Positions 15,697-37,800 of a DNA stretch of 64,000 bases are shown here, piece after piece. A model generated the notes under the pieces. The model did not search any database and was not told the origin of the DNA. It saw only the letters and a list, made by a program, of their open reading frames with translations. The stretch lies in NCBI RefSeq assembly GCF_000374125.1, contig NZ_KB893626.1:434001-498000 (forward strand), read 5' to 3'. The translations under genes were made by a program, and so were the position numbers. This stretch comes from Niabella aurantiaca DSM 17617 (GTDB taxonomy: Bacteria; Bacteroidota; Bacteroidia; Chitinophagales; Chitinophagaceae). The first letter of the stretch is position 1. Every line of letters starts with the position of its first letter.

Positions 15697-16173
15697 CTAT
15701 TTGGGGTTTGCTATTTTCATCCGGTATTTTGCAATGATGGCATCGCTGGCTTTTTCCAGCAGGTCGTAAACTTCATGATAGCCCGGCTCAGGGCCGTACC
15801 AGGGGTCGGGTACATCCTGGTCTCCGCCGGGCTCCGTTTCATTCATGATGAGTTGTACTTTTGAGGCGTCGAACCGGTTGCGGGCGATATACCGGATTTC
15901 GTCAATAACATCCCCTGCCATTGCGTAAATTTTGTCGAACCGGTCAAAGTCAGCTGCTGCAAAATCTCTTGCCCGCTGCCCTGAAATATCGATCCCGTGT
16001 AAGGCTGCCACTTTTTGCGACAGGCGGTGCGGTGCTTCCCCGGTATGATAGCCGTTTGTTCCGGCGCTGTCGATCTCCCAGTCCAATCCCTGCTCCGCCG
16101 CTTTTTTTTGTAAAATCCCCTCCGCCAGCGGGCTTCTGCAAATATTGCCCAGGCATACCATTAAAATCTTCAT
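15697..16173 (-). CDS. Low-molecular-weight protein-tyrosine phosphatase
   Basis: A 158-residue cytoplasmic phosphatase. The P-loop CLGNICRS starts at the nucleophile C7 and ends with R13, and the general acid D123 lies in DPWYG. Both are standard for the LMW-PTP family; in bacteria these often dephosphorylate tyrosine kinases of polysaccharide export. The last residues (KIANPK) fall in a repeat-like sequence shared with hisS, so the tail may be an accretion. A perfect -7 element ends four bases before the ATG. hisS follows 33 bases downstream. Confidence 0.94.
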   Translation of the reverse strand: MKILMVCLGNICRSPLAEGILQKKAAEQGLDWEIDSAGTNGYHTGEAPHRLSQKVAALHGIDISGQRARDFAAADFDRFDKIYAMAGDVIDEIRYIARNRFDASKVQLIMNETEPGGDQDVPDPWYGPEPGYHEVYDLLEKASDAIIAKYRMKIANPK

Positions 16174-16177
16174 GCGG

Positions 16178-16185
16178 CAAAGATA
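16178..16185 (-). promoter_or_regulatory. -7 promoter element of the phosphatase gene (leaderless type)
   Basis: The minus strand reads TATCTTTG followed by CCGC and then ATG. The four-base gap puts the predicted transcription start at or next to the start codon. Confidence 0.6.
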
Positions 16186-16280
16186 ACCATCGTTTTTTGT
16201 TTTTTATTTTGCCGTTTCGGGCAATTCCTGTTTTCACCCGGCCCCGCTGTGCCGGCTTGCGGAAGCTGTACGGGCTGAAA

Positions 16281-16310
16281 AGAACAAAACCCCCGGGTTG
16301 GAGGGGTTTT
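16281..16310 (-). terminator. Intrinsic terminator after the 16357 lipoprotein gene
   Basis: A GC-rich stem (AAAACCCC at 16286-16293, GGGGTTTT at 16303-16310) is followed on the minus strand by the T-rich run TTTTGTTCTTTT. Confidence 0.7.
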
Positions 16311-16356
16311 GACCGGACACGCTGGTGTACGGTGGGTGAAACGGTTATCGGCGTCG

Positions 16357-16905
16357 TTAAAATTTTCCGGAGAATTTTCCGCTGCTCAGATTGATATTGG
16401 CATTGGTTGTTTCGTTGATACAGTAGGCATCAAAGGTTCCTTCAATTTCGTTATCGGTGAGCCTGGTGATGCTGAAATTGCCGGTCTTGGAAGCGTAGGC
16501 TTCCTGGCTGGCGCCGGCATTGGAAATGCCAATGGTAAGCACGGCCTGTGTACTGGCGGTGCTGCCATTCTCAAATTTACCGCTGATAGCCCCGGTTTGT
16601 CCCTGGGGTAGGTGTATCACCAGCATGGCCGTGCCGATCTGTGTTCCGTTCATCTGGACAGCGGTAATACTGATCTGTGTTTTGTTTACCGTGTTTACTT
16701 TCGACACCAGGCCTCCTGTAACGGAATTGGATTTAAATTCATTTTTGCCCCCAAATGCTTTGCTGGTAGAGAACCGGATGGAGGCCTTGCCCAGGCTGGC
16801 ATCGGAATCATCGCCGGCACCGGATTTTTTACACGCGGTAAAAGTGAACGCTGCCAGCAGAATGGCGGTAAAGAAAATGTTGCAGGTCGTTTTGCTTTTT
16901 GTCAT
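16357..16905 (-). CDS. Lipoprotein of unknown function
   Basis: A 182-residue protein with a lipoprotein signal (AAFTFTACKKSG, lipidated C25). The mature part is rich in Ser, Thr, Asn and Gly and looks like a single beta-sandwich, with strands such as KASIRFSTSKAF and TQISITAVQMNG. The C-terminal block EIEGTFDAYCINETTNANINLSSGKFSGKF resembles the ends of many small Bacteroidota lipoproteins. No enzyme motif is seen. It lies 20 bases downstream of the 16926 gene on the same strand, so the two are probably one operon ending at the terminator near 16290. Confidence 0.65.
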   Translation of the reverse strand: MTKSKTTCNIFFTAILLAAFTFTACKKSGAGDDSDASLGKASIRFSTSKAFGGKNEFKSNSVTGGLVSKVNTVNKTQISITAVQMNGTQIGTAMLVIHLPQGQTGAISGKFENGSTASTQAVLTIGISNAGASQEAYASKTGNFSITRLTDNEIEGTFDAYCINETTNANINLSSGKFSGKF

Positions 16906-16925
16906 GATCGTTTTTTTTATGAAGA

Positions 16926-17999
16926 TTATTTTTTCAGCAGGATGGATTTCGCAATAAATGCATCGGCATATTTATCGAGCGATCGTTTTGCTGCTTCCCT
17001 GTATTTTGCCCGGGTGGTTTCAATCACTACCGGGTTTAAGGATTTGGCAAAGGCAAATCCGTTCCGTTTCAGGCGAGAGGGGTCCTGTGATATTTTTTCG
17101 GAATAGCTTTCATCCCCTTCAAGGTTGTTCATGATCACTATTGTCTCTACTCCGCCTTTCCCGTTTAGAAGCATGGATAATGCAGCGTTGGCTCTGGTGT
17201 TGGCGCTCACAACCATTTGAGGAATTACTGTGCCGGAATATTTGAACGACCTTGTTTTTTCAATTGTATAAATATGCTGCTTTTCGGAACTTTTGATTTT
17301 TACGTCCAGCAAAATATCGGCAAAATCCAACGTAAGATAAAAATAGCCGGCGTCGGCTCCCAGTTCATCACAAAAGCGCATGGCTTTTTTGGCCTTGCCA
17401 AAAGCAAATCCCGTTTTGCCGCCCCACAGCGTATTCCCGTTGTTGGCATTGGTAGCTATGATTACCTGCTCCCTGTCGAATTCCGGCTTCTTATCGTCCT
17501 GTTTTTTATAAAAATCGGTATTGGTAATGACGCCCCAGGATACGGTATCGATTCCTGCCGCCTTCAGTTTCTTTTGAAAGGAATGATAAAAATAGTCGGT
17601 GATCTCCTGGAAGTCTTCCTGTGTCAGCTGCCCGTCTGTGGTTTCGAGGAAGGCTTTCAGCTTTGCTCCGGCAATAGCGCCGGTGCTTCTTTCCTTACCA
17701 ATCGTCGATTCGCTGGTATTCAGCTTATAGGTTATGCTGAGTTGGGCAATGGCAAACTTTTGAAGATTGGGGAGTATTTTCGGCTTTGCAAAAGTACCCG
17801 CCAGCATCAGCTTTAGTTTTTCGGCATTCTGTTTATCTTCCGTGCTTACCTGGGCATAACCCGCTAAATGGGTCAGGCTGCAGAAAATAAGCAAGATAAT
17901 GGGTAGCAGGTGGGCAGCGTGCTTTAAATGGTTCGTTATCGCCGATCCGGGGATCTTTGAATGGCGGATGCCGTCATGTAAAGAAGTTGTTTGGTTCAT
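16926..17999 (-). CDS. Exported protein of unknown function
   Basis: A 357-residue protein; the ATG at 17999 is chosen over an upstream start because it gives a plausible, if long, signal region (HLLPIILLIFCSLTHLAGYAQ, cut near residue 50). The mature part is mixed alpha/beta, with a helix-rich middle (EDFQEITDYFYHSFQKKLKAAGID) and strands near DAGYFYLTLDFADILLDVKI. No catalytic pattern was recognised. It precedes a small lipoprotein gene by 20 bases and diverges from the TPR sensor kinase at 18156. A functional link with that kinase is possible but not shown. Confidence 0.6.
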   Translation of the reverse strand: MNQTTSLHDGIRHSKIPGSAITNHLKHAAHLLPIILLIFCSLTHLAGYAQVSTEDKQNAEKLKLMLAGTFAKPKILPNLQKFAIAQLSITYKLNTSESTIGKERSTGAIAGAKLKAFLETTDGQLTQEDFQEITDYFYHSFQKKLKAAGIDTVSWGVITNTDFYKKQDDKKPEFDREQVIIATNANNGNTLWGGKTGFAFGKAKKAMRFCDELGADAGYFYLTLDFADILLDVKIKSSEKQHIYTIEKTRSFKYSGTVIPQMVVSANTRANAALSMLLNGKGGVETIVIMNNLEGDESYSEKISQDPSRLKRNGFAFAKSLNPVVIETTRAKYREAAKRSLDKYADAFIAKSILLKK

Positions 18000-18155
18000 T
18001 TTTATTGTTTTTGAAAGTTTTGAAAGGGATCTCAATGATAAGACCGGCAGCTATTTCACCGCAAATCACGAAAGAAAATTGCAGGTAAACAATAGTGCAG
18101 ATGTACTATACGGGAATTCGCCGCATGGCAAATATTTTGTAAACTTGCGATAGAA

Positions 18156-20078
18156 ATGGACACTGCTATGAGAATGAAACAATTCTTATCATCAACCCTG
18201 CTGTTGTTTACCGGCTTTTTGGCTTTTGGCCAGCAGCAGGGAACTTCCGTTTTGCTGAAGAGGCTGAAGACCGCATCGGGTTACGAGCAAAAGGCGGACA
18301 TCCTCTACGACATATGCCAACGTTACCAGAACTCCGCTCCCGATTCTGCCTACCATTTTGCCGCACAGCTCGAAACGCTGGCAAAGGCACACAGCGATCA
18401 GCAACGGCAATACCGGGCACAGTTGTTAATAGCCCAGTATTTTACCAGTACCGGCCGGGCAAAAGAGGGTCTTGCTATTTGCGAAAAAGCGATGGTGCAG
18501 CTGCAGCATGATAAAAAGAACGCAGATCTGGTCATTGACTTCTGGCGCCTCAGGGGTGGTTGCCTGATGCAGTTGAACAAACAGCAGGAAGCCCTGAACA
18601 CATTTTATGAATTGCTGAAAATAAGCGAGCAGAACGGTTCCGTTTATGGAAGAGTGGCGGCCATTACCAATATTGGCTGGGTGTATATGGAGCTGTTTCA
18701 ATTCGACCGGGCCATAGCCGAGTTTAATACCGCAAAATTGCTGGCGGAACAGTATTCCACAGCGGTACCCCCGTTTTATGTGCCCAAGATTTATAACAAC
18801 ATGGCATCCTGTTACGGTGCAAAAGGGGAAACCGATTCTGCTTACCTGTACACCAACAAAGGGATAGCCGCCGCATTGAAGGTTAACGACTATGCTACTG
18901 CTGCCAATGGGCTGAACATCCTGGGAACGGCATTGATGGAAGAAAAAAAATACAGGGAAGCATTGGAAAAATTGCTGCATGCAAAATCACTCAGGCAGAA
19001 AGTGGGCAACCCGTTTTTTGTTGTGTCTGATATGGCCACGCTGGCAACCCTTTATAACGCGATGGGAAATACCGGGGCGGGTATTAAAACAAGCAAGGAG
19101 GCATTGGCCATTGCAAAAGAAAACAACATTGATGCAAAGCTGCCCATGTTGTACCTGTCGCTGGCTAATGGCTATGAAGCATCGGGAAATTATAAGGAGG
19201 CCGCAGGTGCCTACAAGTTGTTGGGCAGTCTTAAAGACACCCTGTTTGAAAAAGCAAACAGCGAAGCGATCGCTAACATGCGCGTGCAATATGAAACGGA
19301 AAAAAAGGAAAACGAAAATAAGTTATTAAAGAACGAAAATGCTTTAAAGGAGGCGCGCATCAGCAATAAAAACCGCACCATTTATATACTTGTGGCATCG
19401 ACGTTGTTTGTGGCAGCATTGATGTTTGGCTGGGTAACACGGATACGTTTGCGCAGAAGAGAAAGCGAGCTGAAAGCCATTGCCGATCTGCAAAAGGAAA
19501 AAGAACGCATTGCCCGCGACCTGCACGATAATGTAGGCGGGCAGCTGTCGTATATCATTTATTCGCTCGACGGCATTCATGAGGAAAATAAAGAAAAACG
19601 GGCCGAGATCGCAGCAAACATCGACCTGTCGGTACGCAGTGTTATCGGCAGCCTGCGTGAAACCATCTGGGCCATCAGCGATGCCAATATCTCCCTGCAG
19701 GATTTTTCTGACAAACTAAAACTGTATGTCCGGAACCTTTTTAACCGCGGCGATGTGAAAATTGTGTTCACGGAAAGCGTACAAGCCGGAAAAGAGCTGA
19801 ATGCATTGCTGGGTCTGAACCTGTACCGTATTTGCCAGGAAATCCTTACCAATGCATTTAAGTACAGCCTGGCAGATGAACTGAAAGTAGATCTGCGGTC
19901 AGATACGGCAAAACTGATGATTGCTATCGGCGATAACGGGATGGGGTTTGATGCGGCACTACAGAAGGAGGAGGGCTATGGTTTGCAAAACATCCGGAAG
20001 CGTGCCGGGGAATTCGGAATTGAGCTTATCATGGAAACCGCTGCGGGTAATGGCACACACTACAGGTTGATAGTATAG
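18156..20078 (+). CDS. TPR-domain sensor histidine kinase (HisKA_3 type)
   Basis: A 640-residue kinase counted from the ATG at 18156; the ATG at 18174 (MKQFLSSTLLLFTGFLAFGQ) gives a tidier signal peptide and may be the real start. Order of parts: signal peptide, periplasmic TPR-like helices (about 40-370), coiled coil, one membrane span (408-427), H-box ERIARDLHDNVGGQ with phospho-acceptor H457, then HATPase with N566, GDNGMGF and GYGLQNIRKRAG. This is the NarX/LytS-like layout that pairs with NarL-type regulators; its regulator lies 51 bases downstream. The TPR part probably senses a periplasmic partner. Confidence 0.92.
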   Translation: MDTAMRMKQFLSSTLLLFTGFLAFGQQQGTSVLLKRLKTASGYEQKADILYDICQRYQNSAPDSAYHFAAQLETLAKAHSDQQRQYRAQLLIAQYFTSTGRAKEGLAICEKAMVQLQHDKKNADLVIDFWRLRGGCLMQLNKQQEALNTFYELLKISEQNGSVYGRVAAITNIGWVYMELFQFDRAIAEFNTAKLLAEQYSTAVPPFYVPKIYNNMASCYGAKGETDSAYLYTNKGIAAALKVNDYATAANGLNILGTALMEEKKYREALEKLLHAKSLRQKVGNPFFVVSDMATLATLYNAMGNTGAGIKTSKEALAIAKENNIDAKLPMLYLSLANGYEASGNYKEAAGAYKLLGSLKDTLFEKANSEAIANMRVQYETEKKENENKLLKNENALKEARISNKNRTIYILVASTLFVAALMFGWVTRIRLRRRESELKAIADLQKEKERIARDLHDNVGGQLSYIIYSLDGIHEENKEKRAEIAANIDLSVRSVIGSLRETIWAISDANISLQDFSDKLKLYVRNLFNRGDVKIVFTESVQAGKELNALLGLNLYRICQEILTNAFKYSLADELKVDLRSDTAKLMIAIGDNGMGFDAALQKEEGYGLQNIRKRAGEFGIELIMETAAGNGTHYRLIV

Positions 20079-20129
20079 ATGCACTATTTTATTTCATGAA
20101 GGGCAACCGTAATTTTAAGTAAAAACCAT

Positions 20130-20792
20130 ATGATCCATATTGCCATCACAGACGATAAGAAACATTTGAGGAAGACCTTGCAGGAAAAACTGAGCGAAGC
20201 CGGCAAATACGAGGTATTATTTACGGCTGAAAATGGTAAAGATTTCCTGGAGAAAATGATGGAAGCCCGTAAATCTGTTTGTCCGGATGTGGTACTGATG
20301 GATATTGATATGCCGGTAATGGATGGAGTGGAAGCAGTGTTGCAGGGGAAAAAACGCTATCCGCAAACCCGGTTTTTGATGCTCACTATTTTTGATGAAG
20401 ACGCAAAGATCTTCAATGCTATAAAAGCAGGCGCCAGTGGTTATCTGCTGAAAGACGAACCCATCGAAGCGATTAAAAAGGCCATCACGCAATTAATGGA
20501 TGAGGAGGGTGCTCCTATGTCGCCCAGCATTGCCCGGCGCGCCCTGAACATGCTGATGAATGCCACCCTTGATCTGAAAGGTAGTACGTCAAAACAGGAA
20601 ACGGACGAATTTAAGCTGAGCGGTCGTGAAAAGGAAGTACTGACCTTGTTGGTCGATGGGTTGGAATACAAGGAAATAGGACAACAGATGAACGTGAGCC
20701 CCAACACCATCCGCAACCATATTGCCAACATCTACAGGAAGCTGCACGTAACCTCAAAAGCACAGGCGATCAGGGTATTTGGAAGGGAGTAG
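20130..20792 (+). CDS. NarL/LuxR-family response regulator
   Basis: A 220-residue regulator. The receiver domain has acidic residues D8-D9, phospho-acceptor D58 in VVLMDIDMPVMDG, T86 and K108. The LuxR-type helix-turn-helix spans about 163-217 (LSGREKEVLTLL through TIRNHIANIYRKL). Phosphorylation by the kinase encoded just upstream should allow dimerisation and DNA binding. The 51-base gap suggests co-transcription with the kinase. Target genes are not evident; the divergent 16926-16357 pair is a candidate by position only. Confidence 0.95.
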   Translation: MIHIAITDDKKHLRKTLQEKLSEAGKYEVLFTAENGKDFLEKMMEARKSVCPDVVLMDIDMPVMDGVEAVLQGKKRYPQTRFLMLTIFDEDAKIFNAIKAGASGYLLKDEPIEAIKKAITQLMDEEGAPMSPSIARRALNMLMNATLDLKGSTSKQETDEFKLSGREKEVLTLLVDGLEYKEIGQQMNVSPNTIRNHIANIYRKLHVTSKAQAIRVFGRE

Positions 20793-20859
20793 TAAAGAAA
20801 AGAGGTAAAACTTACCGGGCACCGGCGGCAAATCAAAACCCGCGAACCGAAAACCGGCG

Positions 20860-20867
20860 TATCTTTG
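20860..20867 (+). promoter_or_regulatory. -7 promoter element of rlmN (leaderless type)
   Basis: TATCTTTG is followed by CCGG and then the rlmN ATG, the same four-base spacing seen at other genes here. Confidence 0.6.
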
Positions 20868-20871
20868 CCGG

Positions 20872-21918
20872 ATGAACACAAAGCAGCAGAACATCCGCAC
20901 CCTCAGTCTTACCGACCTGGAGGATTATTTTTTATCCATCGGGGAGAAAAAATTCCGGGCAAAACAGGTTTACGACTGGTTGTGGCTGAAGCCGGTACAA
21001 GATTTTGACGCGATGAGCAATATCAGCAAGGAGCTGCGGCAGAAACTGGCTGACCGGTTTGATTTTCCGGCGCTGAGGATTGATACCACGCAGCATTCAG
21101 AAGATGGCACCATCAAATCCCGCTTTAAAACCGTTGAGGGCCACCTGACAGAGGGGGTACTGATCCCTACTGACGAGCGCAAAACGGCCTGCGTCAGTTC
21201 ACAGATCGGTTGCAGCCTCAGCTGTAAATTCTGCGCTACCGGTTATATTGAGCGGAAAAGGAACCTGAGCTTTGACGAGATCTATGATGAAGTGGCACTG
21301 ATCAACCAGCAGTCGCTGGAAGTGTATGATAAAAAGCTGACAAACATCGTATTTATGGGCATGGGAGAACCGTTACTGAACTATAAGAACGTTTTAAAAG
21401 CGATCGAAAAGATCACTTCCCCCGATGCCCTCGGCATGAGCCCGCGGAGGATCACCGTTTCCACAGCCGGGGTGGCCAAGCAGATCCGGCAGCTGGGCGA
21501 TGACCGGGTGAAATTCAAGCTGGCGCTGTCGCTGCATGCGGCCACTGACAGGAAGCGCCACGAGATCATGCCCATTAACGACAGCAATAATATTCAGTCG
21601 CTTATTGAAGCGCTCAATTATTTTTATAAGCAAACGAAGAACGAGATCACTTTTGAGTATATCCTCTTTAATAATTTTAATGATTCGCTGGAAGATGCGG
21701 ATGAGCTGATCAAAATTTACCGCCAGGTGCCGGCCGATCTGGTGAACCTGATCGAATACAACCCCATCGAATTTGCAAAATTCACCAAGCCTTCCGAGGA
21801 AAAAGTAGAAGCTTTTATGAGCTACCTGGAAAAAAACAGGGTAAATGCCCGGTTGCGCCGCAGCAGGGGAAAAGACATCGATGCCGCCTGTGGCCAGCTG
21901 GCCAATAAGGGCAACTGA
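20872..21918 (+). CDS. rlmN: Dual-specificity RNA methyltransferase RlmN
   Basis: A 348-residue radical-SAM enzyme that methylates C2 of A2503 in 23S rRNA and, in some bacteria, A37 of certain tRNAs. The iron-sulfur cysteines C114, C118 and C121 form CSLSCKFC, and C340 in DAACGQL is the conserved C-terminal cysteine that forms the transient RNA adduct. The blocks FMGMGEPLLNY and HAATDRKRHEIMPIN are also standard. Length and motifs are complete. It has its own promoter-like element directly before the ATG and appears monocistronic. Confidence 0.97.
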   Translation: MNTKQQNIRTLSLTDLEDYFLSIGEKKFRAKQVYDWLWLKPVQDFDAMSNISKELRQKLADRFDFPALRIDTTQHSEDGTIKSRFKTVEGHLTEGVLIPTDERKTACVSSQIGCSLSCKFCATGYIERKRNLSFDEIYDEVALINQQSLEVYDKKLTNIVFMGMGEPLLNYKNVLKAIEKITSPDALGMSPRRITVSTAGVAKQIRQLGDDRVKFKLALSLHAATDRKRHEIMPINDSNNIQSLIEALNYFYKQTKNEITFEYILFNNFNDSLEDADELIKIYRQVPADLVNLIEYNPIEFAKFTKPSEEKVEAFMSYLEKNRVNARLRRSRGKDIDAACGQLANKGN

Positions 21919-22291
21919 GATGGCTAGCAGGGAAAAGTGTGCATATGTTAGTTTTCTCTCGGATTACACGGATGTTCACAGATTTGTTGTAGCTATTTTG
22001 TGATCGGTGTAATTCTCGCACCTCCTTATTTACCCGGTCTCCGACTCTTAAGGATTTCTGTAAAAATCTGTGTATGCTATGAGCATAATTGTTTGCGGTT
22101 ATTTCCCAACGGATGGCAGCCGCCCACATACGTATAAAAAGAGATCCTCTTCTTTGCCGGGGTCCCTGTAAGTAAATAACTCGAAAACCGGTCAGGACAA
22201 CGGAAAGTGAAACGCGTAAAAATGGCATGGACGACCTGTTGCGTTTTTGAAAGAAAAAACGTTTCTGATCATAAACAAAACCTGAATGATT
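21919..22291. other. Intergenic region with a degraded direct-repeat element
   Basis: No gene is seen. Bases 21959-22078 contain phrases such as GGATTACACGGATGTTCACAG and, further on, ATCGGTGTAATT and AAAATCTGTGTATG, which look like a decayed member of an intergenic repeat built from GGATTACACGGAT-type words. Confidence 0.4.
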
Positions 22292-26309: not shown

Positions 26310-26729
26310 TTATAGATGATTACAGGATTTACAAACGCCCTTCACCACCACTTCTACCTGCTGTATGGTGTACTCGCGCGGCAGCTTTACCGTTGGGGTT
26401 ACTACATCATCCAGGCATAAGGTATTGCCGCACCGGGTGCACACCAGGTGCACATGATGGTCATGATGGTGCCCCTCCCAACAGTCGTTCTTACACAATG
26501 CATATTTGATGCTGTTATCAGAGGTAGGAATAGTATGGATGATCCCTTTATCTACAAAGGATTGCAGGGTCCGGTAAACGGTCACGCGGTCAAAATGACC
26601 ATCGGTGTTCTTTTCAATATCCGCATGGGCCAGCGCACCATTGCTGTTCAGGAAAAGCGACAGGATCTTGCGCCGCCCTTCCGTTACACTTAAATTATTT
26701 TGTTTTAATATATGAACAATGCTATCCAT
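26310..26729 (-). CDS. Fur-family metal-responsive repressor
   Basis: A 139-residue regulator. A winged helix (about 10-75, with DRVTVYRTLQSFVDKG as recognition helix region) is followed by a dimerisation domain. That domain has the structural zinc cysteines C97/C100 (CTRC) and C133/C136 (CKSC) and a dense histidine cluster at 87-94 (HHHDHHVH). The family senses iron, zinc, manganese or peroxide; the two CxxC pairs and histidine cluster are compatible with a zinc or iron sensor, but the metal is not decided. It lies 13 bases after the SCO1 gene and has its own -7-like element. Confidence 0.92.
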   Translation of the reverse strand: MDSIVHILKQNNLSVTEGRRKILSLFLNSNGALAHADIEKNTDGHFDRVTVYRTLQSFVDKGIIHTIPTSDNSIKYALCKNDCWEGHHHDHHVHLVCTRCGNTLCLDDVVTPTVKLPREYTIQQVEVVVKGVCKSCNHL

Positions 26730-26733
26730 ACCT

Positions 26734-26741
26734 TAAAGTTA
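26734..26741 (-). promoter_or_regulatory. -7-like element before the Fur-family gene
   Basis: The minus strand reads TAACTTTA (7 of 8 to TAnnTTTG), then AGGT, then ATG: again a four-base gap. Confidence 0.4.
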
Positions 26742-26742
26742 A

Positions 26743-27363
26743 TTAATTTTTTGAAGCATCTTTTAGCTCGTCCGCGATGTCCGCGATCAGCCGGTTGATC
26801 TCTTTTTGCTTGAGTCCGTCATAGATTTTTAATACATTGCCTTTTCGATCCACCAGCGCCCAGAATTGGGTATGCAAAAAATCATCTTCGTCCGAGTTAA
26901 AATAATTCTTGGGATCGTCAATAGTGTAACTCAGGCGTGCCATTTTATAAAGACTGTCCTTACGACCAGTTAAAAACACCCATTGGTGCGTATCTACCTT
27001 CATCGAATCGGCATAGTGTTTTAACTGGGCGGCGGAATCATTTTCAGGATCGCAGGTATGCGACAGGATCAGGAAGCCCGGTGTACCCTTGTATTTTTTG
27101 TAAACCTGTTTCATATTGTCATTCATCATCGGGCAAATGCCCGGACAGGTCGTATAAAAATATTCGGCCACATATATTTTGCCTTCCACATCTTTATTGG
27201 AAAAAGGCTTTCCGTCCTGATCGGTAAATGTAAATTTTCCCACCTTGCTGATGGGCTCCAGTTTACGGTCATTGAAACCAGGGATAAAATAGACCGCTGT
27301 CAGATAAAATGCAATGGACAGAAAAACGAAAAATGCGATATAAAAGATAGCCTTTTTTGACAT
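26743..27363 (-). CDS. SCO1/SenC-family copper chaperone
   Basis: A 206-residue protein starting at the ATG at 27363, which places a single N-terminal membrane anchor at about 5-27. The thioredoxin-like domain carries the copper site C73 and C77 in CPGICP and H164 in FLHTQFW. SCO proteins deliver copper to subunit II of cytochrome c oxidase or keep its cysteines reduced. The upstream in-frame start would add 14 residues and is less likely. A -7 element TACATTTG lies at 27381-27388. The Fur-family gene follows 13 bases downstream. Confidence 0.92.
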   Translation of the reverse strand: MSKKAIFYIAFFVFLSIAFYLTAVYFIPGFNDRKLEPISKVGKFTFTDQDGKPFSNKDVEGKIYVAEYFYTTCPGICPMMNDNMKQVYKKYKGTPGFLILSHTCDPENDSAAQLKHYADSMKVDTHQWVFLTGRKDSLYKMARLSYTIDDPKNYFNSDEDDFLHTQFWALVDRKGNVLKIYDGLKQKEINRLIADIADELKDASKN

Positions 27364-27380
27364 GGTTGAAAATTGAAGTG

Positions 27381-27448: not shown

Positions 27449-27478
27449 TTTGCAACAACGTTTCTTTTTTTATTTTTG
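27449..27478 (+). promoter_or_regulatory. Full -33/-7 promoter of the MerC-like gene (leaderless type)
   Basis: TTTG at 27449-27452, an 18-base spacer and TATTTTTG at 27471-27478, followed by CAAC and ATG at 27483. This is the best two-part promoter in the window. Confidence 0.65.
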
Positions 27479-27482
27479 CAAC

Positions 27483-27884
27483 ATGCGATCAAAAATCAAT
27501 TGGGATGCCTTGGGCATTTCGGCCTCCGTGATTTGCGCCATTCATTGCGCTATTTTGCCTCTTTTTATGGCCAGCCTCCCGCTTTTTGGCATCAATATCA
27601 TTGAAAATGTGGCTTTTGAGCTGGGAATGATCCTCCTGGCATTTTTGATCGGCATTTATGCGTTGCATCACGGGTATAAATATCACCATCATAATAAATG
27701 GCCGATCCTGCTGTTTGCCACCGGCATTCTTTTTTTAGTGCTGAAGCAGGTATTTCTTCAGTATCATACCCTGCTGCTGGTGCCCGCGGTGGTGCTGATC
27801 ATAACGGCACATCTGGTCAATTACCGGTATTGCCGCAGTCACAATCATGCGCACGCAGACGATTGTGATCATGATCATTATTAG
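27483..27884 (+). CDS. MerC-domain membrane protein
   Basis: A 133-residue protein with four spans. The first holds the MerC-type cysteine pair C18 and C22 (ICAIHCAILP). A histidine patch (HHGYKYHHHNK) lies between spans two and three, and the tail is His/Asp-rich (SHNHAHADDCDHDHY), probably metal-binding. MerC proteins of mercury operons import mercury, but isolated chromosomal copies may handle other metals. The ATG at 27483 is chosen because a complete promoter ends four bases before it. The gene diverges from SCO1-fur, suggesting a shared metal-handling role. Confidence 0.87.
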   Translation: MRSKINWDALGISASVICAIHCAILPLFMASLPLFGINIIENVAFELGMILLAFLIGIYALHHGYKYHHHNKWPILLFATGILFLVLKQVFLQYHTLLLVPAVVLIITAHLVNYRYCRSHNHAHADDCDHDHY

Positions 27885-29239: not shown

Positions 29240-29396
29240 GCGCTGAAAGAAGTACTAAATTACACAGAAATAACGCAGTATCTGTGAAATTGTTGTTGCG
29301 GCGGGTATTTTTATGAAAGATCCCGGGGAATCGACGCCTGCGTTCACGCCCTTTAGAAAATAGTTTCAAAAACTTCGCTTTTTGCCATAATTGTCT

Positions 29397-29404
29397 TAAT
29401 TTTG
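29397..29404 (+). promoter_or_regulatory. -7 promoter element of the rimP-nusA-infB operon
   Basis: TAATTTTG matches TAnnTTTG exactly. A TTTG at 29381-29384 is only 12 bases upstream, too close to be the normal -33 box. Confidence 0.55.
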
Positions 29405-29423
29405 CGGCAGAAAAGGAGATTGA

Positions 29424-29453
29424 GGGAACGGAGGCGTTCCCTTCTTCTTTTTT
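29424..29453 (+). promoter_or_regulatory. Terminator-like hairpin in the rimP-nusA-infB leader (possible attenuator)
   Basis: A perfect 7-bp stem (GGGAACG at 29424-29430, CGTTCCC at 29435-29441) with loop GAGG is followed by the T-rich run TTCTTCTTTTTT, ending 8 bases before the rimP ATG. Its place, after the predicted transcription start and before the first gene, suggests control of read-through. Confidence 0.6.
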
Positions 29454-29460
29454 CAGAAAT

Positions 29461-29931
29461 ATGGATAAAGAGGGAATCATTCAAAAGTTACAGGAAAAAG
29501 TAGTTGCGTTGCTGACGGAAAACCCGTCTCATTTTTTAGTAGATATCCGTATAAAACCTACCAATAACTTTAAAATATTTATTGACGGTGATAATGGCGT
29601 GGGCATTGATGACCTTGTAAAGTATAACCGGGCGCTGTATAAGCAGATCGAAGAAGAGGGGTTATTTCCGGAAGGCGATTTTTCGCTGGAAGTATCTTCA
29701 GCGGGGCTGGATGAACCGCTGAAACTGCACCGGCAGTATGTAAAAAATACGGGACGTCATGTGGAGGTCATTCAATCAGACGGACAAAAGACGGAGGGAG
29801 TGCTGTTATCTGTGAACGATGCAGCAATTGTGGTGGAAGCGATCAGCGGCCATGGAAAGAAAATGGAAAAAACAGAACATACTATTTTATTGGAAACGAT
29901 TAAAACAACAAAAATTCAAATTAAATTTTAA
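29461..29931 (+). CDS. rimP: Ribosome maturation factor RimP
   Basis: A 156-residue protein needed for 30S subunit maturation. The family blocks IFIDGDNGVGIDDLVKYNR and FSLEVSSAGLDEPLK (about 38-90) are complete, followed by the small SH3-like C-terminal domain. It is the first gene of the rimP-nusA-infB operon, whose order is conserved across bacteria; nusA starts 50 bases later. A hairpin with a U-tract lies just before the start codon. Confidence 0.95.
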   Translation: MDKEGIIQKLQEKVVALLTENPSHFLVDIRIKPTNNFKIFIDGDNGVGIDDLVKYNRALYKQIEEEGLFPEGDFSLEVSSAGLDEPLKLHRQYVKNTGRHVEVIQSDGQKTEGVLLSVNDAAIVVEAISGHGKKMEKTEHTILLETIKTTKIQIKF

Positions 29932-29981
29932 AAGTAACAGCTCAGGGGCTGTGATTTCATTAAGGTAAATCGTACTTCATT

Positions 29982-31229
29982 ATGGCAAGTATTAATTTAA
30001 TTGAGGCATTCCAGGATTTTAAAGATGCAGAAAATATAGATCGCCCTACAATGATGAAAGTCGTTGAGGACGTATTCAAAACATTACTCCGCAAGAAATA
30101 CGGAAGCGATGAAAATTTTGATGTAATCGTGAATGCAGAAAAGGGAGACCTGGAGATCGTGCGGCACCGTACCATTGTAGAAGATGGAGAAGTGGAGGAT
30201 CCGTTGGCCCAGGTTGCCTATTCCGAGGCGGTGAAGCTGGAACCGGACTATGAAGTGGGAGAAGACCTGTATGAGGAAATTGACCTGATCGATTTTGGCC
30301 GCAGAGCCATCCTGGCTGCGAAACAAACGCTGGCCGGGCGCATCAGCGATTTAAAGAAGAACGTACTGGCTAAGAAATACGAAGACCGGATCGGTGAGAT
30401 CATCAGCGCCGAAGTGTACCAGGTGTGGAAGAAAGAGATCTTATTGCTGGATGAGGAAGGTAATGAATTGATCCTTCCCAAAAGCGAGCAGATACCCCAG
30501 GACTACTTTAAGAAAGGGGAAAACATCCGTGCAGTGGTGACCCGGGTGGATCTGAAGAACAACAACCCGGTGATCATTCTTTCCCGGACGGCTCCCGATT
30601 TTCTGGCAAAACTGCTGGAAATAGAGGTGCCCGAGATCTTTGACGGGCTGATCATTATAAAAAAGATCGTAAGGGAACCGGGTGAAAGGGCAAAAGTGGC
30701 GGTGGAATCTTATGACGACCGCATTGACCCGGTGGGCGCCTGCGTAGGTATGAAAGGAAGCCGGATCCACGGTATCGTGCGGGAGTTAAAGAACGAAAAT
30801 ATTGATGTGATCAACTGGACCACCAATATGCAATTGCTGATCCAGCGCTCGCTGACCCCCGCAAAGATCACCAGTATGAGCCTGGATCAGGAAGGCCGGC
30901 ATGCCAGTATCTTTTTAAAACCCGACCAGGTTTCACTGGCGATCGGAAAAAGAGGGGTCAATATTAAACTGGCCTCAGATCTTACAGGATATGAGCTGGA
31001 CGTATACCGCGATACTGAAGATGAAGAAGAAGAGTTTGATGTGGACCTGGAAGAATTTTCAGATGAAATTGATGAATGGGTGATCGATGCGTTAAAGAAA
31101 ATAGGATGCGATACGGCGCGCAGTGTATTGCGCATGTCGCCCGGCGAGCTTGAAAAAAGGGCCGATCTGGAAAAAGAGACGGTAGATGATGTTCGAAAAA
31201 TTTTACAAGAAGAACTGGAGCGGGAATGA
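29982..31229 (+). CDS. nusA: Transcription termination/antitermination factor NusA
   Basis: A 415-residue NusA, which binds RNA polymerase and nascent RNA to modulate pausing, termination and antitermination. It has the N-terminal polymerase-binding domain (about 1-125), an S1 domain (GEIISAEVYQVWKKE), and two KH domains (VGACVGMKGSRIHGIVREL and SLAIGKRGVNIKLAS). An acidic linker (DTEDEEEEFDVDLEEF) leads to a helical C-terminus. The two extra acidic repeats of E. coli NusA are absent, as in most bacteria. It is the second gene of the rimP operon. Confidence 0.97.
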   Translation: MASINLIEAFQDFKDAENIDRPTMMKVVEDVFKTLLRKKYGSDENFDVIVNAEKGDLEIVRHRTIVEDGEVEDPLAQVAYSEAVKLEPDYEVGEDLYEEIDLIDFGRRAILAAKQTLAGRISDLKKNVLAKKYEDRIGEIISAEVYQVWKKEILLLDEEGNELILPKSEQIPQDYFKKGENIRAVVTRVDLKNNNPVIILSRTAPDFLAKLLEIEVPEIFDGLIIIKKIVREPGERAKVAVESYDDRIDPVGACVGMKGSRIHGIVRELKNENIDVINWTTNMQLLIQRSLTPAKITSMSLDQEGRHASIFLKPDQVSLAIGKRGVNIKLASDLTGYELDVYRDTEDEEEEFDVDLEEFSDEIDEWVIDALKKIGCDTARSVLRMSPGELEKRADLEKETVDDVRKILQEELERE

Positions 31230-31315
31230 TGATGCTACCCCGGCATCATTAGCGGATTTTGTGTGAACGATAAACAAAAGGTTCTGCTAAAGCGGAACAA
31301 GGGATAAAAAATTTT

Positions 31316-34210
31316 ATGGCAGAAAAGAAACTTCCAAGATTATTACAAGCGGCTAAGGAATTTAACATTGGCCAGGATACACTTGTTGAGTTCTTAGCAG
31401 GTAAAGGTTTTGATCGGGACGAGCTGAAACCCTCCACTAAGCTGACAGATGCGATGTATGCTGCCCTGCAACAGGGATTTCATGGTGATAAAGCCGCAAA
31501 GATTATCAGCGACCAGGTTGATTTACCAAAGGGATTGGGTGGAGAGAACAAAAAACGTCGCGAGGAGGAAGAGTCGCCAAAACCGGCAGCGCGACCGGCC
31601 ACCAAGGAAGAGCCGGCTGCCGAGCCCCCTCCGGTTGTTGAGGCCGCTCCTGCAGCCCCCGAAGCTCCGGTTAAAGAGGCAGAACTGCCTGCGGCTGAGC
31701 CGGAACCCGCGCCGCAACCTGAGATAAAGGAAAATACAGAAGCGGAAAAAGAAGTGCCTGTGGCGAAAGTACAGGCTCCTGATATTGAAGGCCCGAAGAT
31801 CATCAGTAAGATTGACCTTTCGGCGATTGACTTTTCGACCCGGCCGAAAAAGGCGGCGAAAAAGGAAACCCCGGCGGCGGAAACACCACAGCAGAAGGCA
31901 GAAGAGCCGGTTACAGCCCAGAAGCCGGTGGCTGAAACGCCACCTGCTGAAACTGCAGCTCCGGTTAAGGAAACGCCTGCAGAGGAGGAAAAACCCGCAG
32001 AAGTGCAGATCACCAATATCCAGGCTGAAAAAATTGAAGGACCAAAGATCCTCGGAAAGATCGAGCTGCCTGTAGACAGCGATACCCGGCCCAAGCGGGA
32101 TGAAAAGCGGAAACGGAAACGCATCCCGATCGAGAAAAAAGAGGTAAAAGCAGATCCGGACCAGCGCAGGGCGCACGGTGGTGGTCAGCAGAACCAGGCC
32201 GGCCGGAGCGGTCATCAGCATGGCGGCGGCCATCACGGAAAAGGAAACTTCAGGGACCGGCACCGGCCACACCGTGAGGAAAAACAGATCGACGAGAAAG
32301 AGATCCAGGAAAAGATACGGGAAACCCAGGCCAAACTGAGCGGTGGCGGTGGTAACAAGCAGAAGAGCATGCGCGCAAAAGCACGCAGGGACAAACGCAA
32401 CGAGGCTGCCGAAGCGATGGAGGAAGAAGGGGTTGATAAAACATTAAGAGTAACGGAATTCATCAGCGTAAGCGAGCTGGCAAGCCTGATGGACGTAAGC
32501 TTTGCAGATGTGATCAGCAAATGTATGAGCCTCGGGATCATGGTTTCCATCAACCAGCGTCTTGATGCGGAAGTGATTGAGCTGGTTGCCAGTGAATTCG
32601 GGTATGATGTATCCTTTATTGATATGGAACAGCAGATGGAGATGGAAGAAGAGGCCGATGAAGTGGATGATGAGGCCGACCTGATCCCGAGAAGCCCGAT
32701 CGTTACGATCATGGGACACGTTGACCATGGTAAGACCTCGCTGCTGGACTATATCCGCAATGCCAATGTGGTTGCGGGCGAGGCCGGGGGTATTACACAG
32801 CATATCGGCGCCTACCGGGTAAAAGTGGCCGACGGAAAGGACATCACCTTCCTGGATACACCGGGGCACGAAGCCTTTACCGCTATGCGTGCCCGTGGTG
32901 CAAAGGTTACGGATATTGCCGTGATCGTGGTGGCTGCGGATGATGCCGTGATGCCGCAGACAAAAGAAGCGATCAGCCACGCGCAGGCCGCTGGTGTGCC
33001 CATGATCTTTGCCGTTAACAAAATTGATAAGGACGGTGCCAACCCCCAGAAGATCTATGAGCAGTTGTCGCAGATGAACATCCTGGTGGAAGAATGGGGC
33101 GGTAAATTCCAGAGCCAGGAATTGAGCGCCAAACAAGGCCTGAATGTAGATAAGTTACTGGAAAAAATATTGCTGGAAGCAGAATTGCTGGATCTGAAAG
33201 CCAATCCCGACCGGGAAGCTACGGGTACCATCATTGAAGCAACCCTGGATAAAGGAAGGGGCTATGTAGCCACGCTCCTGGTGGAGAATGGTACACTGCG
33301 ACCCGGTGATCTGATCGTAAGCGGTCAGTATTTTGGACGGGTAAAAGCGATGTTCAATGAACGGAACAAGCGGGAAGATGCCGCCGGCCCTTCCGCACCG
33401 GCCGTGGTGCTGGGATTGAACGGTGCTCCCCAGGCTGGTGAGAAATTTAAAGTGTACGAGGAAGAAGCAGAAGCCAAGAGCATTGCCAACCGCCGTTCGC
33501 AGATCCTGCGCGAGCAGGGAATGCGTACCAAGAAACATATTACCCTTGATGAAATTGGCCGGCGCCTGGCATTGGGTAACTTTAAAGAGCTGAATGTCAT
33601 CATCAAAGGGGATGTGGATGGTTCTGTAGAGGCCCTGAGCGACTCGCTGCAGAAACTTTCAACGGAAGAGATCCTGGTAAATGTGATCCATAAAGGCGTG
33701 GGTCAGATCAATGAGAGTGACATCGTACTGGCAGAAGCTTCGGATGCGATTGTGATCGCCTTTAACGTGCGTCCGTCGCAGCAGGCATCGCAGCTGGCTG
33801 CCAACGCCGGCATCGAAATCAAAATGTACTCGATCATTTACACAGCGATCGATGAAGTGAAGAGCGCAATGGAGGGTATGCTGGAGCCTACCATGAAGGA
33901 AAAGATCGTGGGCAATGTGGAGATCCGTGAAGTGTTCAAATTTGATAAAGCCGTAGTGGCCGGATGTTTTGTGCTGGATGGCCGCATTAAACGCGATAAT
34001 AAGATCCGCCTGATCCGGGATGGTATTGTGATTTATCCGACGGGTGAAAATGCGGTGGCCGAACTGGGCTCGCTAAAGCGGTTCAAAGATGATGCAAAAG
34101 AGGTGCTGACAGGAATGGAATGCGGTTTGACCATTAAGAACTATAATGACATTAAGATAGGGGATGTGGTAGAAGCGTATGAGCTGGAAGAAGTAAAGCG
34201 TACCTTGTAA
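31316..34210 (+). CDS. infB: Translation initiation factor IF-2
   Basis: A 964-residue IF-2, the GTPase that delivers initiator tRNA to the 30S subunit. An N-terminal IF2_N helix bundle (1-55) is followed by a long low-complexity Pro/Ala/Glu region and then a Gly/His/Arg-rich part (to about 380). The G domain follows with G1 GHVDHGKT (467-474), DTPGHE and NKID, then domains II to IV. The low-complexity region holds two copies of the motif EGPKIxxKIxL followed by TRPK, about 80 residues apart. It ends the rimP-nusA-infB operon, and a strong terminator follows. Confidence 0.97.
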
Positions 34211-34241
34211 GGAGGCTCCCCAACAGTAAAATATCATTAAA

Positions 34242-34272
34242 ACATCAGCCGGCACACCCGGCTGGTGTTTTT
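34242..34272 (+). terminator. Intrinsic terminator of the rimP-nusA-infB operon
   Basis: An 11-bp stem with one G-U pair (34242-34252 with 34258-34268), loop CACAC and a T-run to 34272. Confidence 0.85.
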
Positions 34273-34345
34273 CGTTGTGCGGCAACGGGCAACAAAATAT
34301 TTGTTAAATACGGTACTGTTTGGAGCAGGATGCCCCGGGCAGGAT

Positions 34346-34353
34346 TATTTTTG
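34346..34353 (+). promoter_or_regulatory. -7 promoter element of the SurA-like gene (leaderless type)
   Basis: TATTTTTG is followed by AGCT and the ATG at 34358. A TTTG at 34319-34322 is 23 bases upstream, within the 17-23 range reported for this phylum's promoters. Confidence 0.6.
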
Positions 34354-34357
34354 AGCT

Positions 34358-35767
34358 ATGTTTATTATGAATAAAAGAACAGGTCTTTTTTCAGTAAAAG
34401 GAATGCTGGCTGCTTTGGGTGTATTGCTTTCCGTCACAGGGATGGCGCAGGGCCAGTCCAGCAAAGAGGTCATTGACAAAATCATCGGGGTGGTAGGAGA
34501 CCGGATCATCCTGAATTCCGATGTTCAGAATTCGATTAAGGATATGGAACGCAATGGCGAAAAAGTTCCTGCCGGAGCGGATTGTATGATCATGGAGCAG
34601 ATCATGCTTTCAAAGATCCTGGCGTTGCAGGCAGAAAGGGATTCCATACCGCTTACGGAAGAAGAAGTGGAGGCGCAGATGGACCTTCGCGTGCGTGAGT
34701 GGATCATGCGGTTCGGCAGCCAGGCGGAGCTCGAAGCCGTTGCCGGGAAGACCGTTTATCAGCTGAAGGACGACCAGCGTCCGCTGATCAAAGAGCAGAT
34801 GCTTGGGGAACGTATGCGGAACAAGGTCGTTAGCGGTGTGCATATTACCCCCACAGAAGTAAAGGCCTTTTTTGATAAGGTTCCTACAGACAGCCTTCCG
34901 TTCCTGGAGTCGGAGCTTGAGATAGGACAGATCTCCATCCTGCCGCCGGCATCGAAGGATGTAGAGGAGTATATCTATAACGAAATGCTGAACTATAAAA
35001 AGCAGATAGAGGCGGGTACCACCACCTTCGAGGCGCTGGCAAAACGGGTTTCCGAAGACCCCGGCAGCCGTGAGCGCGGAGGTACGTACGAGATCAACCG
35101 GTCCGACAAATCTACCTGGGATCCCGTATTCCTTTCTACAGCTTTCCGTTTAAAAGCCGGCGAGATCTCACAGCCGGTAAAATCCAACCGGTTTGGCTAT
35201 TTCCTGATCCAGCAGGTGAGCCGGCGCGGCGATAATGCCCAGGTCAAAATGATCCTCCGCGTGCCGCCCGTTACCGAAAATGAATTGAAAGAGGCCCGTG
35301 TACGGCTGGACTCTGTGCGTGCAGAGATCGAGTCCCCAAAGATCAGTTTTAAGGACGCCGCCTATAAATACAGTGATGATGAAAATGTAAAGAACTACGG
35401 ACCATTTGTGTTAAACAGGGATGGGTCTACCTACGTGAATATCGATGCACTGGACAAGGATATGGTGAACACGATAAAAAACATGAAGGTGGGCGACCTG
35501 TCGCAACCCGTGAACTTTACCAACGACCAGGGTAAAAAAGGTGTAAGGCTGGTGTACCTGAAATCCCGTTCGGAGCCACACCGGTTAAACCTCAATGATG
35601 ACTATGCCAAGATCGCAGACATGGCACTGAACCAGAAGAAGAATGAGGAACTGGATAAATGGCTGCAAAAAAAGATACCTACTTTCTATATCCTGGTAGA
35701 TAAGGAAAAGACCAATGGCTGCCCGAGTCTTTTAAAGTACCAGACCACGGCGAACAGGGGTTTTTAA
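34358..35767 (+). CDS. SurA-like periplasmic peptidyl-prolyl isomerase
   Basis: A 469-residue exported chaperone/isomerase with an N-terminal signal ending near GMAQ (residue 31). A SurA N-domain follows (VIDKIIGVVGDRIILNSDVQN), then two parvulin-type domains. The first spans about residues 175-290, with FEALAKRVSEDPGSRERGG and FRLKAGEISQPVKSNRFGYFLIQ; the second is more divergent (about 290-420). SurA homologs help fold outer-membrane beta-barrels. The ATG at 34358 is chosen because a -7 element ends four bases before it. gmk follows 118 bases downstream. Confidence 0.92.
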   Translation: MFIMNKRTGLFSVKGMLAALGVLLSVTGMAQGQSSKEVIDKIIGVVGDRIILNSDVQNSIKDMERNGEKVPAGADCMIMEQIMLSKILALQAERDSIPLTEEEVEAQMDLRVREWIMRFGSQAELEAVAGKTVYQLKDDQRPLIKEQMLGERMRNKVVSGVHITPTEVKAFFDKVPTDSLPFLESELEIGQISILPPASKDVEEYIYNEMLNYKKQIEAGTTTFEALAKRVSEDPGSRERGGTYEINRSDKSTWDPVFLSTAFRLKAGEISQPVKSNRFGYFLIQQVSRRGDNAQVKMILRVPPVTENELKEARVRLDSVRAEIESPKISFKDAAYKYSDDENVKNYGPFVLNRDGSTYVNIDALDKDMVNTIKNMKVGDLSQPVNFTNDQGKKGVRLVYLKSRSEPHRLNLNDDYAKIADMALNQKKNEELDKWLQKKIPTFYILVDKEKTNGCPSLLKYQTTANRGF

Positions 35768-35885
35768 TCCGTACCGGAAGGGGCCTGCTACGGTCATTTC
35801 AGGCTGTTTTTGTTCCGGCAAAAGCCGGTTTCGGATGGAAGGATATTGTTTGTCCTGTCGTTATAATTTAGTATTTTGCGGGTGC

Positions 35886-36512
35886 ATGATATTAGCCAAT
35901 CGTCCGTTTTTGTATGCTCCGGTTGTCTCCGGCTCAAAAGAGCATCATAAGATCATTATTCTTACGGCTCCTTCAGGTGCCGGAAAAACTTCGATCACCC
36001 ATCATTTGTTAAAGAAGATCCCGCAGCTGTCCTTCTCCATCTCTGCAGCTACGAGGGAGGCCCGCAGCGGGGAGGTAGACGGCAGCGATTACTATTTTAT
36101 CAGTGAGGAAGCGTTTACTGAAAAGATCAAGGCCAATGAGTTTGTAGAGTGGGAAATGGTTTATGAAGGGAAATACTATGGAACCCTGAAAAGCGAGTTG
36201 CAGCGCCTTTGGAAGAAGGACAAATACCCCTTGCTGGATATTGATGTGAAGGGTGCGATCCATGTGCAGCAGCAGTATCCTGAAGAGAGCCTTTCTATTT
36301 TTATAGAGCCGCCTTCTGTAAAAGAGCTGAGGAGGCGCCTGATCTCCCGGGGCAGCGAGAGTGAAGAGTCGTTGCAGACCCGTCTGAACAAGGCAGAATA
36401 CGAACTGTCGTTTATCAATTATTTTAACAAGGTGGTGGTAAATGATGACCTGGAAGAAGCCTGCACCGAAACGGAGACCCTGGTGCGAAAATTCCTGAAT
36501 ATACCTGCCTAA
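35886..36512 (+). CDS. gmk: Guanylate kinase
   Basis: A 208-residue kinase that converts GMP to GDP. The P-loop is TAPSGAGKTS (28-37), preceded by about 26 residues with no counterpart in E. coli Gmk. The GMP-binding block AATREARSGEVDGSDYYFIS and the lid region RLISRGSESEESLQTRL are complete. The ATG at 35886 is preferred over an upstream start at 35835, whose extension (Cys-rich, no family match) is unlikely. A TATTTTG sequence lies just before the ATG. Confidence 0.95.
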   Translation: MILANRPFLYAPVVSGSKEHHKIIILTAPSGAGKTSITHHLLKKIPQLSFSISAATREARSGEVDGSDYYFISEEAFTEKIKANEFVEWEMVYEGKYYGTLKSELQRLWKKDKYPLLDIDVKGAIHVQQQYPEESLSIFIEPPSVKELRRRLISRGSESEESLQTRLNKAEYELSFINYFNKVVVNDDLEEACTETETLVRKFLNIPA

Positions 36513-36540
36513 ACAAAAACGTTTCATGTAGCATTTTATA

Positions 36541-36548
36541 TATCTTTA
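36541..36548 (+). promoter_or_regulatory. -7-like element of the CBS/CorC gene (leaderless type)
   Basis: TATCTTTA (7 of 8 to TAnnTTTG) is followed by TCTT and the ATG at 36553, again four bases. Confidence 0.45.
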
Positions 36549-36552
36549 TCTT

Positions 36553-37800
36553 ATGGAATGGCAGCTATTAATGTGGATCGTTTCTTTGCTGTTCATGATC
36601 TTCTTTGCCGGCGTGGAAATGGCATTTTACGGAGCCAGCAGGCTGAACATCGAACTGAAGCGGAAACAGGGAAGCTTTACAGGCAGGTTGCTTGGTAAAT
36701 TTGTTGACACACCGGCGATCTTTTGGGGAACTACCGTAATCGGATACATTACGGCCCTCACCATTTTTGTATTGCAAACCAGTGAAGTACTCATCCCTTT
36801 CTGGCAAAAAAGCGGGATCAGCTCAAGAACGGCCCAGATCCTGCTGGAGATCGCCTTTAACACACTCATCATTCTGATATTTGTGGAATTCATACCCCGG
36901 GCGGTTTTCAGGGCCAACAGCAATACGCTGCTCAGCCGCCTGGCGGTGATCATCAATTTCTTTCTGTGGCTGCTGTACCCCATTACAGCTGCGCTGTTCC
37001 GTATGGCGAACTGGATCCTGAAGTATGTATTCAACGTGCGGCTGGACAAAGGTAAATCGCCTTTTGCCCGTAATGATCTGCAATTTATGTTCCGAGACAG
37101 CCGGACGACCCTTCGGGAGGAAACCAGTACCCACCTTCTTGAAAATGCACAGGAACTGGCCAATATCAAAATCCGGCAGAGCATGGTGCCCCGCAAAGAG
37201 ATCATAGCCGTTGAGGTCCATGCCCCGGTTGAGACGTTGATGGCAAAATTTATGGAGACCAAAAGAAGCCGGATCATTGTGTACGAATCCAACATCGACA
37301 ATATCCTCGGGTTTGTCCATGAACTGGACCTTTTTAAAAAGCCGGGGGATATTGCGTCGATCCTGATCCCCATTATTGCCGTTCCGGAAAGCATGACCGC
37401 TGTGGGGCTGATCAATAAATTCAGCAAGGAATCGAAAAGCATTGCCTGGGTAGTGGATGAGTTTGGAGGTACCGCAGGAATCATCACCATGGAGGATGTA
37501 TTGGAGGAGCTGTTCGGTGAAATATGGGATGAGTATGATACCCAGATGTTTGTAGAAAAAAGGATCTCGGAAGATGAATATATTTTTTCCGGGAGGATGG
37601 AGCTGGACCACCTGGAGAAGAAATATGACTTTGAATTTGAGGATAAGGACGATTCGGAAACCTTATCAGGATATATCATCAATTTTTATGAAACCATTCC
37701 CGCTCAGAAGGAGCGGATCATTATCGGCGATTTTGAATTTGACATTCTTGGGGTAAACGATACCCGGATAGAGATGGTGAAAATGAAAAAATTAAAATAG
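36553..37800 (+). CDS. DUF21/CBS/CorC-HlyC membrane protein
   Basis: A 415-residue protein. The N-terminal DUF21 membrane part has about four spans (1-160), followed by a CBS pair (about 200-325; SMVPRKEIIAVEV and WVVDEFGGTAGIITMEDVLEELFGEI) and a C-terminal CorC_HlyC domain (about 340-410). Relatives include magnesium/cobalt efflux-type proteins (CorC, CNNM) and the gliding protein GldE of Bacteroidota. Without a neighbouring gliding gene the role cannot be fixed. tatC follows on the same strand after 63 bases. Confidence 0.88.
   Translation: MEWQLLMWIVSLLFMIFFAGVEMAFYGASRLNIELKRKQGSFTGRLLGKFVDTPAIFWGTTVIGYITALTIFVLQTSEVLIPFWQKSGISSRTAQILLEIAFNTLIILIFVEFIPRAVFRANSNTLLSRLAVIINFFLWLLYPITAALFRMANWILKYVFNVRLDKGKSPFARNDLQFMFRDSRTTLREETSTHLLENAQELANIKIRQSMVPRKEIIAVEVHAPVETLMAKFMETKRSRIIVYESNIDNILGFVHELDLFKKPGDIASILIPIIAVPESMTAVGLINKFSKESKSIAWVVDEFGGTAGIITMEDVLEELFGEIWDEYDTQMFVEKRISEDEYIFSGRMELDHLEKKYDFEFEDKDDSETLSGYIINFYETIPAQKERIIIGDFEFDILGVNDTRIEMVKMKKLK

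Follow-up and report, generated by a model that had tools for sequence, protein, structure and literature searches.

Sequence analysis of a 64,000-nt stretch of the Niabella aurantiaca DSM 17617 genome (contig NZ_KB893626.1, C2, positions 434001-498000, hereafter the window; the genome comprises 5.93 Mb in 25 contigs) provides good support for a predicted class of genes in this genome whose transcripts have no, or almost no, leader. In these genes the element TAnnTTTG would be placed such that RNA polymerase starts at or just before the ATG, leaving no or almost no leader, and the ribosome would bind the 5'-terminal AUG directly. Excluding a Fur-family gene, we assign this reading a probability of approximately 0.85. 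A first-pass annotation of the window had proposed such a class from six genes carrying the element, or a one-base variant, exactly four bases before the ATG, and had noted a B12-binding gene with five intervening bases. The class is supported by a genomic peak in the spacing and by conservation at the phosphatase, rlmN, SurA-like, MerC-like, CorC-like, and B12-binding genes; the Fur-family gene (3 out of 17 same-genus loci) drops out.

The spacing k is the number of bases between TAnnTTTG (exact unless noted) and the predicted ATG of the gene. In the window, exact TANNTTTG-N4-ATG occurs four times, compared to a mean of 0.81 in shuffled sequences, none of 100 of which reached four. For the genome, k was determined for the in-frame ATGs close to the start of each gene in 80 systematic 20-kb stretches (60 over nine larger contigs and 20 from the largest, window excluded). 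Genes were called by a simple codon-usage script, which yielded 926 genes including those of the window, a figure below the full-annotation number. Counts of 3, 1, 1, and 2 for k=0-3 are followed by 9, 7, and 7 for k=4, 5, and 6, by a trough of 3, 3, 1, 4, 1, 1, 3, and 2 for k=7-14 (sum 18, mean 2.25), and by a hump of 6, 5, 5, 5, 3, 6, 4, 8, and 6 for k=15-23 (sum 67 for k=15-30). The total of 23 for k=4-6 compares to the 6.75 that the trough level would predict (Poisson p = 7e-7); a fixed short distance between element and start is thus found above chance in the genome. The same shape was obtained in an earlier gene-anchored run covering 60 stretches and the window. For 29 permuted motifs the mean was approximately 0.8 per k and none exceeded 9 over k=4-6, and the peak is specific to ATG, being absent before GTG or other triplets. 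Due to the peak at k=4-6, the trough at k=7-14, and the hump from 15 onwards, there appear to be two gene classes, leaderless and leadered, with few genes between them. As a very rough estimate, one in six exact-consensus elements situated up to 60 bases from a gene sits at k=4-6 after subtraction of background. An AraC-family regulator gene (ATG 56155; 56138-56157) carries TACCTTTG at k=9, with spacings of 9 or 10 in four relatives, and, within the general trough, may have a conserved leader of only about 4-6 bases.

TAnnTTTG is the -7 element of sigma-ABfr, the housekeeping sigma factor of the Bacteroidota. In Flavobacterium johnsoniae many -7 elements lie 4 or 5 nt before the transcription start (PMC6847099), and therefore k=4-6 would correspond to a leader of approximately 0-2 bases. 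By this analogy, from which the start base is inferred, transcription would begin on the A of the ATG for k=4, there or one base before for k=5, and one or two bases before for k=6. Genes in the trough would then have leaders of about 2-10 bases, and ordinary leaders would be found in the hump from 15 onwards. The mode of translation is likewise inferred: on an mRNA with no or almost no 5' leader the ribosome would bind the 5'-terminal AUG directly, with no Shine-Dalgarno sequence.

In F. johnsoniae the two free positions of the -7 element contain no G, i.e., TAHHTTTG, and the -33 TTTG element of sigma-ABfr promoters is reported to be weak (PMC6847099). G occurs at these positions in 4% and 4% of the near elements (n=27, four of them in the window), in 7% and 1% of the leadered elements (n=71), and in 12% and 17% of the in-gene copies (n=514). 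A C follows TTTG in 63% of near, 49% of leadered, and 31% of coding copies. Low G and C after TTTG weakly suggest, at n=27, that near elements share further promoter marks with leadered ones. A peak of TTTG at -33 is not evident in the base tables of the elements, of which no formal test was made.

Conservation is deep for rlmN. Orthologues were counted in 30 loci per gene, out of the genomes matched (rlmN 39, phosphatase 36, Fur 27, MerC 23, SurA 38, CorC 38, B12 39, and 38 for the leadered control gene 895-1458). Second copies of Fur (L156-L158), second copies or fragments of MerC (L182-L188), and B12 paralogues (L396-L398; 41-43% identity, frames of more than 700 codons) were excluded prior to counting. 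For rlmN, TATCTTTG or a similar element occurs at k=4 in 16 out of 17 same-genus loci; in the remaining one (L083) the element is seen by eye and the reading frame is broken. Stop codons or frame breaks were observed in several searched genes (L082, L083, and L090 of the same-genus genomes G012, G002, and G003) and are probably assembly errors. Outside the genus the element is found in 5 out of 7 loci in other genera of the family and in 3 out of 6 in other families, to which G048 is added on reading. In the alignment of 16 same-genus loci all eight element columns are invariant, compared to a mean majority of 0.47 for positions -60 to -21, and k is unchanged in all of five syntenic relatives of the window region.

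At the level of the phylum, the best 80 of 589 related stretches from genome records were inspected, a set in which distant groups are under-sampled. The element is located at k=3-6 in 46 of these 80 loci (37 at 4, 6 at 5, and 3 at 6), compared to a mean of 0.24 and a maximum of 4 for permuted motifs. Sorted by identity, it is present in 23 out of 26 loci of at least 65%, in 16 out of 29 of the middle band, and in 7 out of 25 of the lowest. The set includes Pedobacter, Mucilaginibacter, Sphingobacterium, Saprospiraceae, Pontibacter, and Adhaeribacter; within the same best 80 of 589 the element is missing in Dyadobacter, Emticicia, Spirosoma, several Flavobacteriales, and others. Among the matches listed, the best protein relatives belong to Paraflavitalea, Flavihumibacter, Sediminibacterium, and Arachidicoccus, with at most 79% identity. 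The predicted rlmN layout thus reaches other orders of the Bacteroidota. A GTG start is found in 11 of the 46 loci with an element, all at k=4 and mostly in Sphingobacteriaceae-type records. In L275, L278, L280, L281, L283, L284, and L288, which are of this type, the GTG is situated exactly four bases past the element, and a leaderless GUG start is possible there.

Five further genes show element and spacing conserved between species within the genus; together with rlmN, spacing is kept at five of the six sites and at the B12-binding gene, and lost at Fur. With the looser motif TAnnTTT[AG], the CorC-like gene has k=4-6 in 17 out of 17 same-genus loci, nearly always as TATCTTTA, in 4 out of 7 in the family, and in 0 out of 6 beyond. 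Its element in the window (36541-36548) reads TATCTTTA and not TATCTTTG, and since the final A is retained in nearly all same-genus relatives, it may be a selected weak or variant promoter. The SurA-like gene shows k=4-5 in 15 out of 17 same-genus loci (2 out of 7 in the family, 0 out of 6 beyond); in L198, L200-L202, L204, L209, and L210 the N-terminus differs and the first ATG is still 4-5 bases past the element. For the phosphatase, k=4-5 is found in 13 out of 16 same-genus loci, and a near element in 2 out of 6 in the family and 1 out of 8 beyond. The MerC-like gene shows k=4-6 in 13 out of 17 same-genus loci (11 at exactly 4; k=6-7 in five of the 17, three of them at 7), 1 out of 4 in the family, and 0 out of 2 beyond, and is predicted to be leaderless in the near clade. 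The B12-binding gene has k=5 in 8 out of 10 same-genus orthologues. The control gene, in contrast, shows k=4-6 in none of 15 loci, with values of 18 to 38 (two loci read 10 via an earlier ATG and 22 via a later one; for loci with several in-frame ATGs the smallest spacing was taken). In the five syntenic relatives k is kept by the SurA-like gene in 5 out of 5, the phosphatase in 4 out of 5, and the B12-binding gene in 4 out of 4, and leadered genes drift, e.g., 40 versus 34, 34, 35, and 36, or 57 versus 23, 58, 59, and 59.

All six four-base sites are present as annotated (Table 1), four with an exact element and two as variants, those of the Fur-family and CorC-like genes, which end in A and not G. 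The consensus TAnnTTTG, also in the form TAHHTTTG, is matched exactly at rlmN, the phosphatase, the MerC-like, the SurA-like, and the B12-binding gene, and the five-base spacer of the latter is confirmed.

Table 1. Elements located four or five bases before an ATG in the window
Gene	Gene coordinates	Element	Element position	Bases to ATG	Span	Strand	Remark
LMW tyrosine phosphatase	15697-16173	TATCTTTG	16178-16185	4	16171-16185	-	exact element
rlmN (TIGR00048)	20872-21918	TATCTTTG	20860-20867	4	20860-20874	+	exact element
Fur-family gene	26310-26729	TAACTTTA	26734-26741	4	26727-26741	-	one-base variant; judged not to be a conserved promoter
MerC-family gene	27483-27884	TATTTTTG	27471-27478	4	27471-27485	+	exact element
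SurA-like peptidyl-prolyl isomerase	34358-35767	TATTTTTG	34346-34353	4	34346-34360	+	exact element
CNNM/CBS/CorC-like gene	36553-37800	TATCTTTA	36541-36548	4	36541-36555	+	one-base variant
B12-binding gene, methylmalonyl-CoA mutase C-terminal type	49391-49798	TACATTTG		5	49796-49811	-	exact element; ATG ending 49798

Several observations weigh against a leaderless class. The genome-wide count of TAnnTTTG-N4-ATG, suggested with the first-pass annotation as a check, exceeds that of the reversed pattern (132 versus 59 in 5.93 Mb), but these raw counts, made regardless of gene positions, single out the spacing only weakly, with 132, 93, and 94 for k=4, 5, and 9, respectively. Among 59 genomes the raw count at k=4 exceeds that at k=9 in 40, including 16 out of 17 within the genus, and in other families of the order in 10 out of 23 genomes only. 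Raw counts are weak because in-gene copies and codon phase set the background; k=9 differs from k=4 in codon phase and is not a clean control. As a test of spacing they were dropped in favor of the gene-anchored counts. At single genes, 3 out of 16 same-genus phosphatase loci are without a near element, the spacings of the SurA-like gene and the phosphatase lengthen to 19-22 in several further genera of the family, and the B12-binding gene, at k=17 in two loci of the genus, has no near element in 17 loci beyond it (0/6 and 0/11). Furthermore, the distant element of gene 29461-29931 holds a spacing of 56 in four of five relatives, and therefore constant spacing alone is no proof; the related genomes compared are also non-independent.

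A chance origin in an AT-rich upstream region, or an A/T-rich translational signal resembling TAnnTTTG, is very improbable. It would fit the Fur element, which follows a stop codon and has a final A, and which most relatives have lost. However, permuted motifs of the same letters form no peak, the rlmN element is invariant amid diverging flanks, and its 46 occurrences in the best 80 of 589 phylum loci are opposed by at most 4 for permuted motifs; for rlmN, SurA-like, CorC-like, and phosphatase genes chance is largely refuted. It is also quite unlikely that translation bypasses the nearest ATG and begins further on in the same frame, at k=16 in the phosphatase and k=13 in the SurA-like gene, the element being an ordinary promoter followed by a short leader. 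Second ATGs do exist 12 bases on in the phosphatase and 9 in the SurA-like gene, but rlmN and the B12-binding gene, which have none within the examined reach, still hold k=4 or 5, and SurA-like relatives without a second ATG retain k=4-5 to the first. The Pfam match of the phosphatase begins at residue 3, and translation beginning at the second ATG would presumably remove part of the family's first conserved strand; the ATG-specific peak at k=4-6 likewise argues against later starts. The near element could also be a secondary promoter giving a minor start, the main transcript coming with a leader from upstream. The presence of at least two TAnnTTTG-like copies at the MerC-like gene of some relatives is compatible with this arrangement, but a scan of 120 bases revealed no second conserved TAnnTTTG at a fixed place upstream of rlmN, and we regard it as unlikely.

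In case of the Fur-family gene, k=4 occurs in 3 out of 17 same-genus loci, k=3 in three more, and the element is found in 0 out of 6 loci of the family and 1 out of 4 beyond; neither element nor spacing is conserved between species (3/17 in the genus at k=4-6, 0/6 in the family). Thirteen bases separate its ATG from the stop (26743-26745) of a preceding SCO1/SenC gene (Pfam PF02630), which has an element of its own 17 bases before its ATG. Due to the loss of the element in most relatives and the close position behind the SCO1/SenC stop, Fur was rejected as a leaderless gene. It is probably expressed from the SCO1/SenC operon, and close or coupled re-initiation would explain it better than a leaderless promoter.

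Upstream of the MerC-like gene, TGCAACAACGTTTCT (27451-27465) is situated five bases before the -7 element, and relatives show clearer TGCAACATTGTTGCA palindromes there. The palindrome looks like an operator for the neighboring Fur-family regulator. In the window, three matches with up to two mismatches compare to 3.32 expected, a single-genome count that is uninformative.

The rlmN case raises the question why one housekeeping gene retains a leaderless state over long time. Its product is the 23S rRNA A2503 / tRNA A37 methylase, and 5'-terminal start codons favor undissociated 70S ribosomes. One may guess, though we consider it doubtful, that rlmN has been kept leaderless across several orders since its expression is coupled to the condition of the ribosomes it modifies and follows how many free or unmodified ribosomes are available; the Sphingobacteriaceae-type GTG loci would then be leaderless GUG starts. 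Bacteroidota do without Shine-Dalgarno sequences, and work on start-codon choice by their ribosomes is continuing. Genes selected to remain leaderless would be natural test mRNAs for this choice, and the rule of an element, 4-6 bases, and ATG would improve start-site annotation in the phylum.

Leaderless mRNA in the Bacteroidota is already known as a minority class. In F. johnsoniae 13% of the genes with a probable promoter have a leader of at most 10 nt (PMC6847099), in F. psychrophilum 5.5% of the mRNAs are leaderless (PMC9723704), and in Bacteroides thetaiotaomicron approximately 3.7% are under 10 nt (PMC7366714). A survey from 2011 described a TA-like signal near the start of leaderless genes in Actinobacteria and Deinococcus-Thermus and found it in one of 37 Bacteroidetes/Chlorobi genomes (PMC3160421); by its own account it sought Pribnow-like promoters only and was therefore blind to TAnnTTTG. 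A search of the open-licence literature yielded no description of leaderless genes conserved in Bacteroidota, nor, as far as the excerpts go, a link of rlmN with leaderless mRNA; the excerpts of the Flavobacterium and Bacteroides mapping papers do not discuss conservation of the leaderless state at single genes. As far as that literature shows, two points are new: spacings in this family fall clearly into two classes, and the layout is deeply conserved at one particular gene, rlmN. Leaderless genes of Actinobacteria and Deinococcus-Thermus resemble those described here in that a promoter element precedes the start at a short, constant distance; this element is a Pribnow box there and TAnnTTTG here. 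Closer are the leaderless mRNAs mapped by RNA-seq in Flavobacterium and Bacteroides, which share the phylum, the -7 element, and the status of a minority class; those papers, in the parts cited, count mapped transcripts in one strain each, whereas the present analysis relies on spacing and conservation in another order, from sequence alone.

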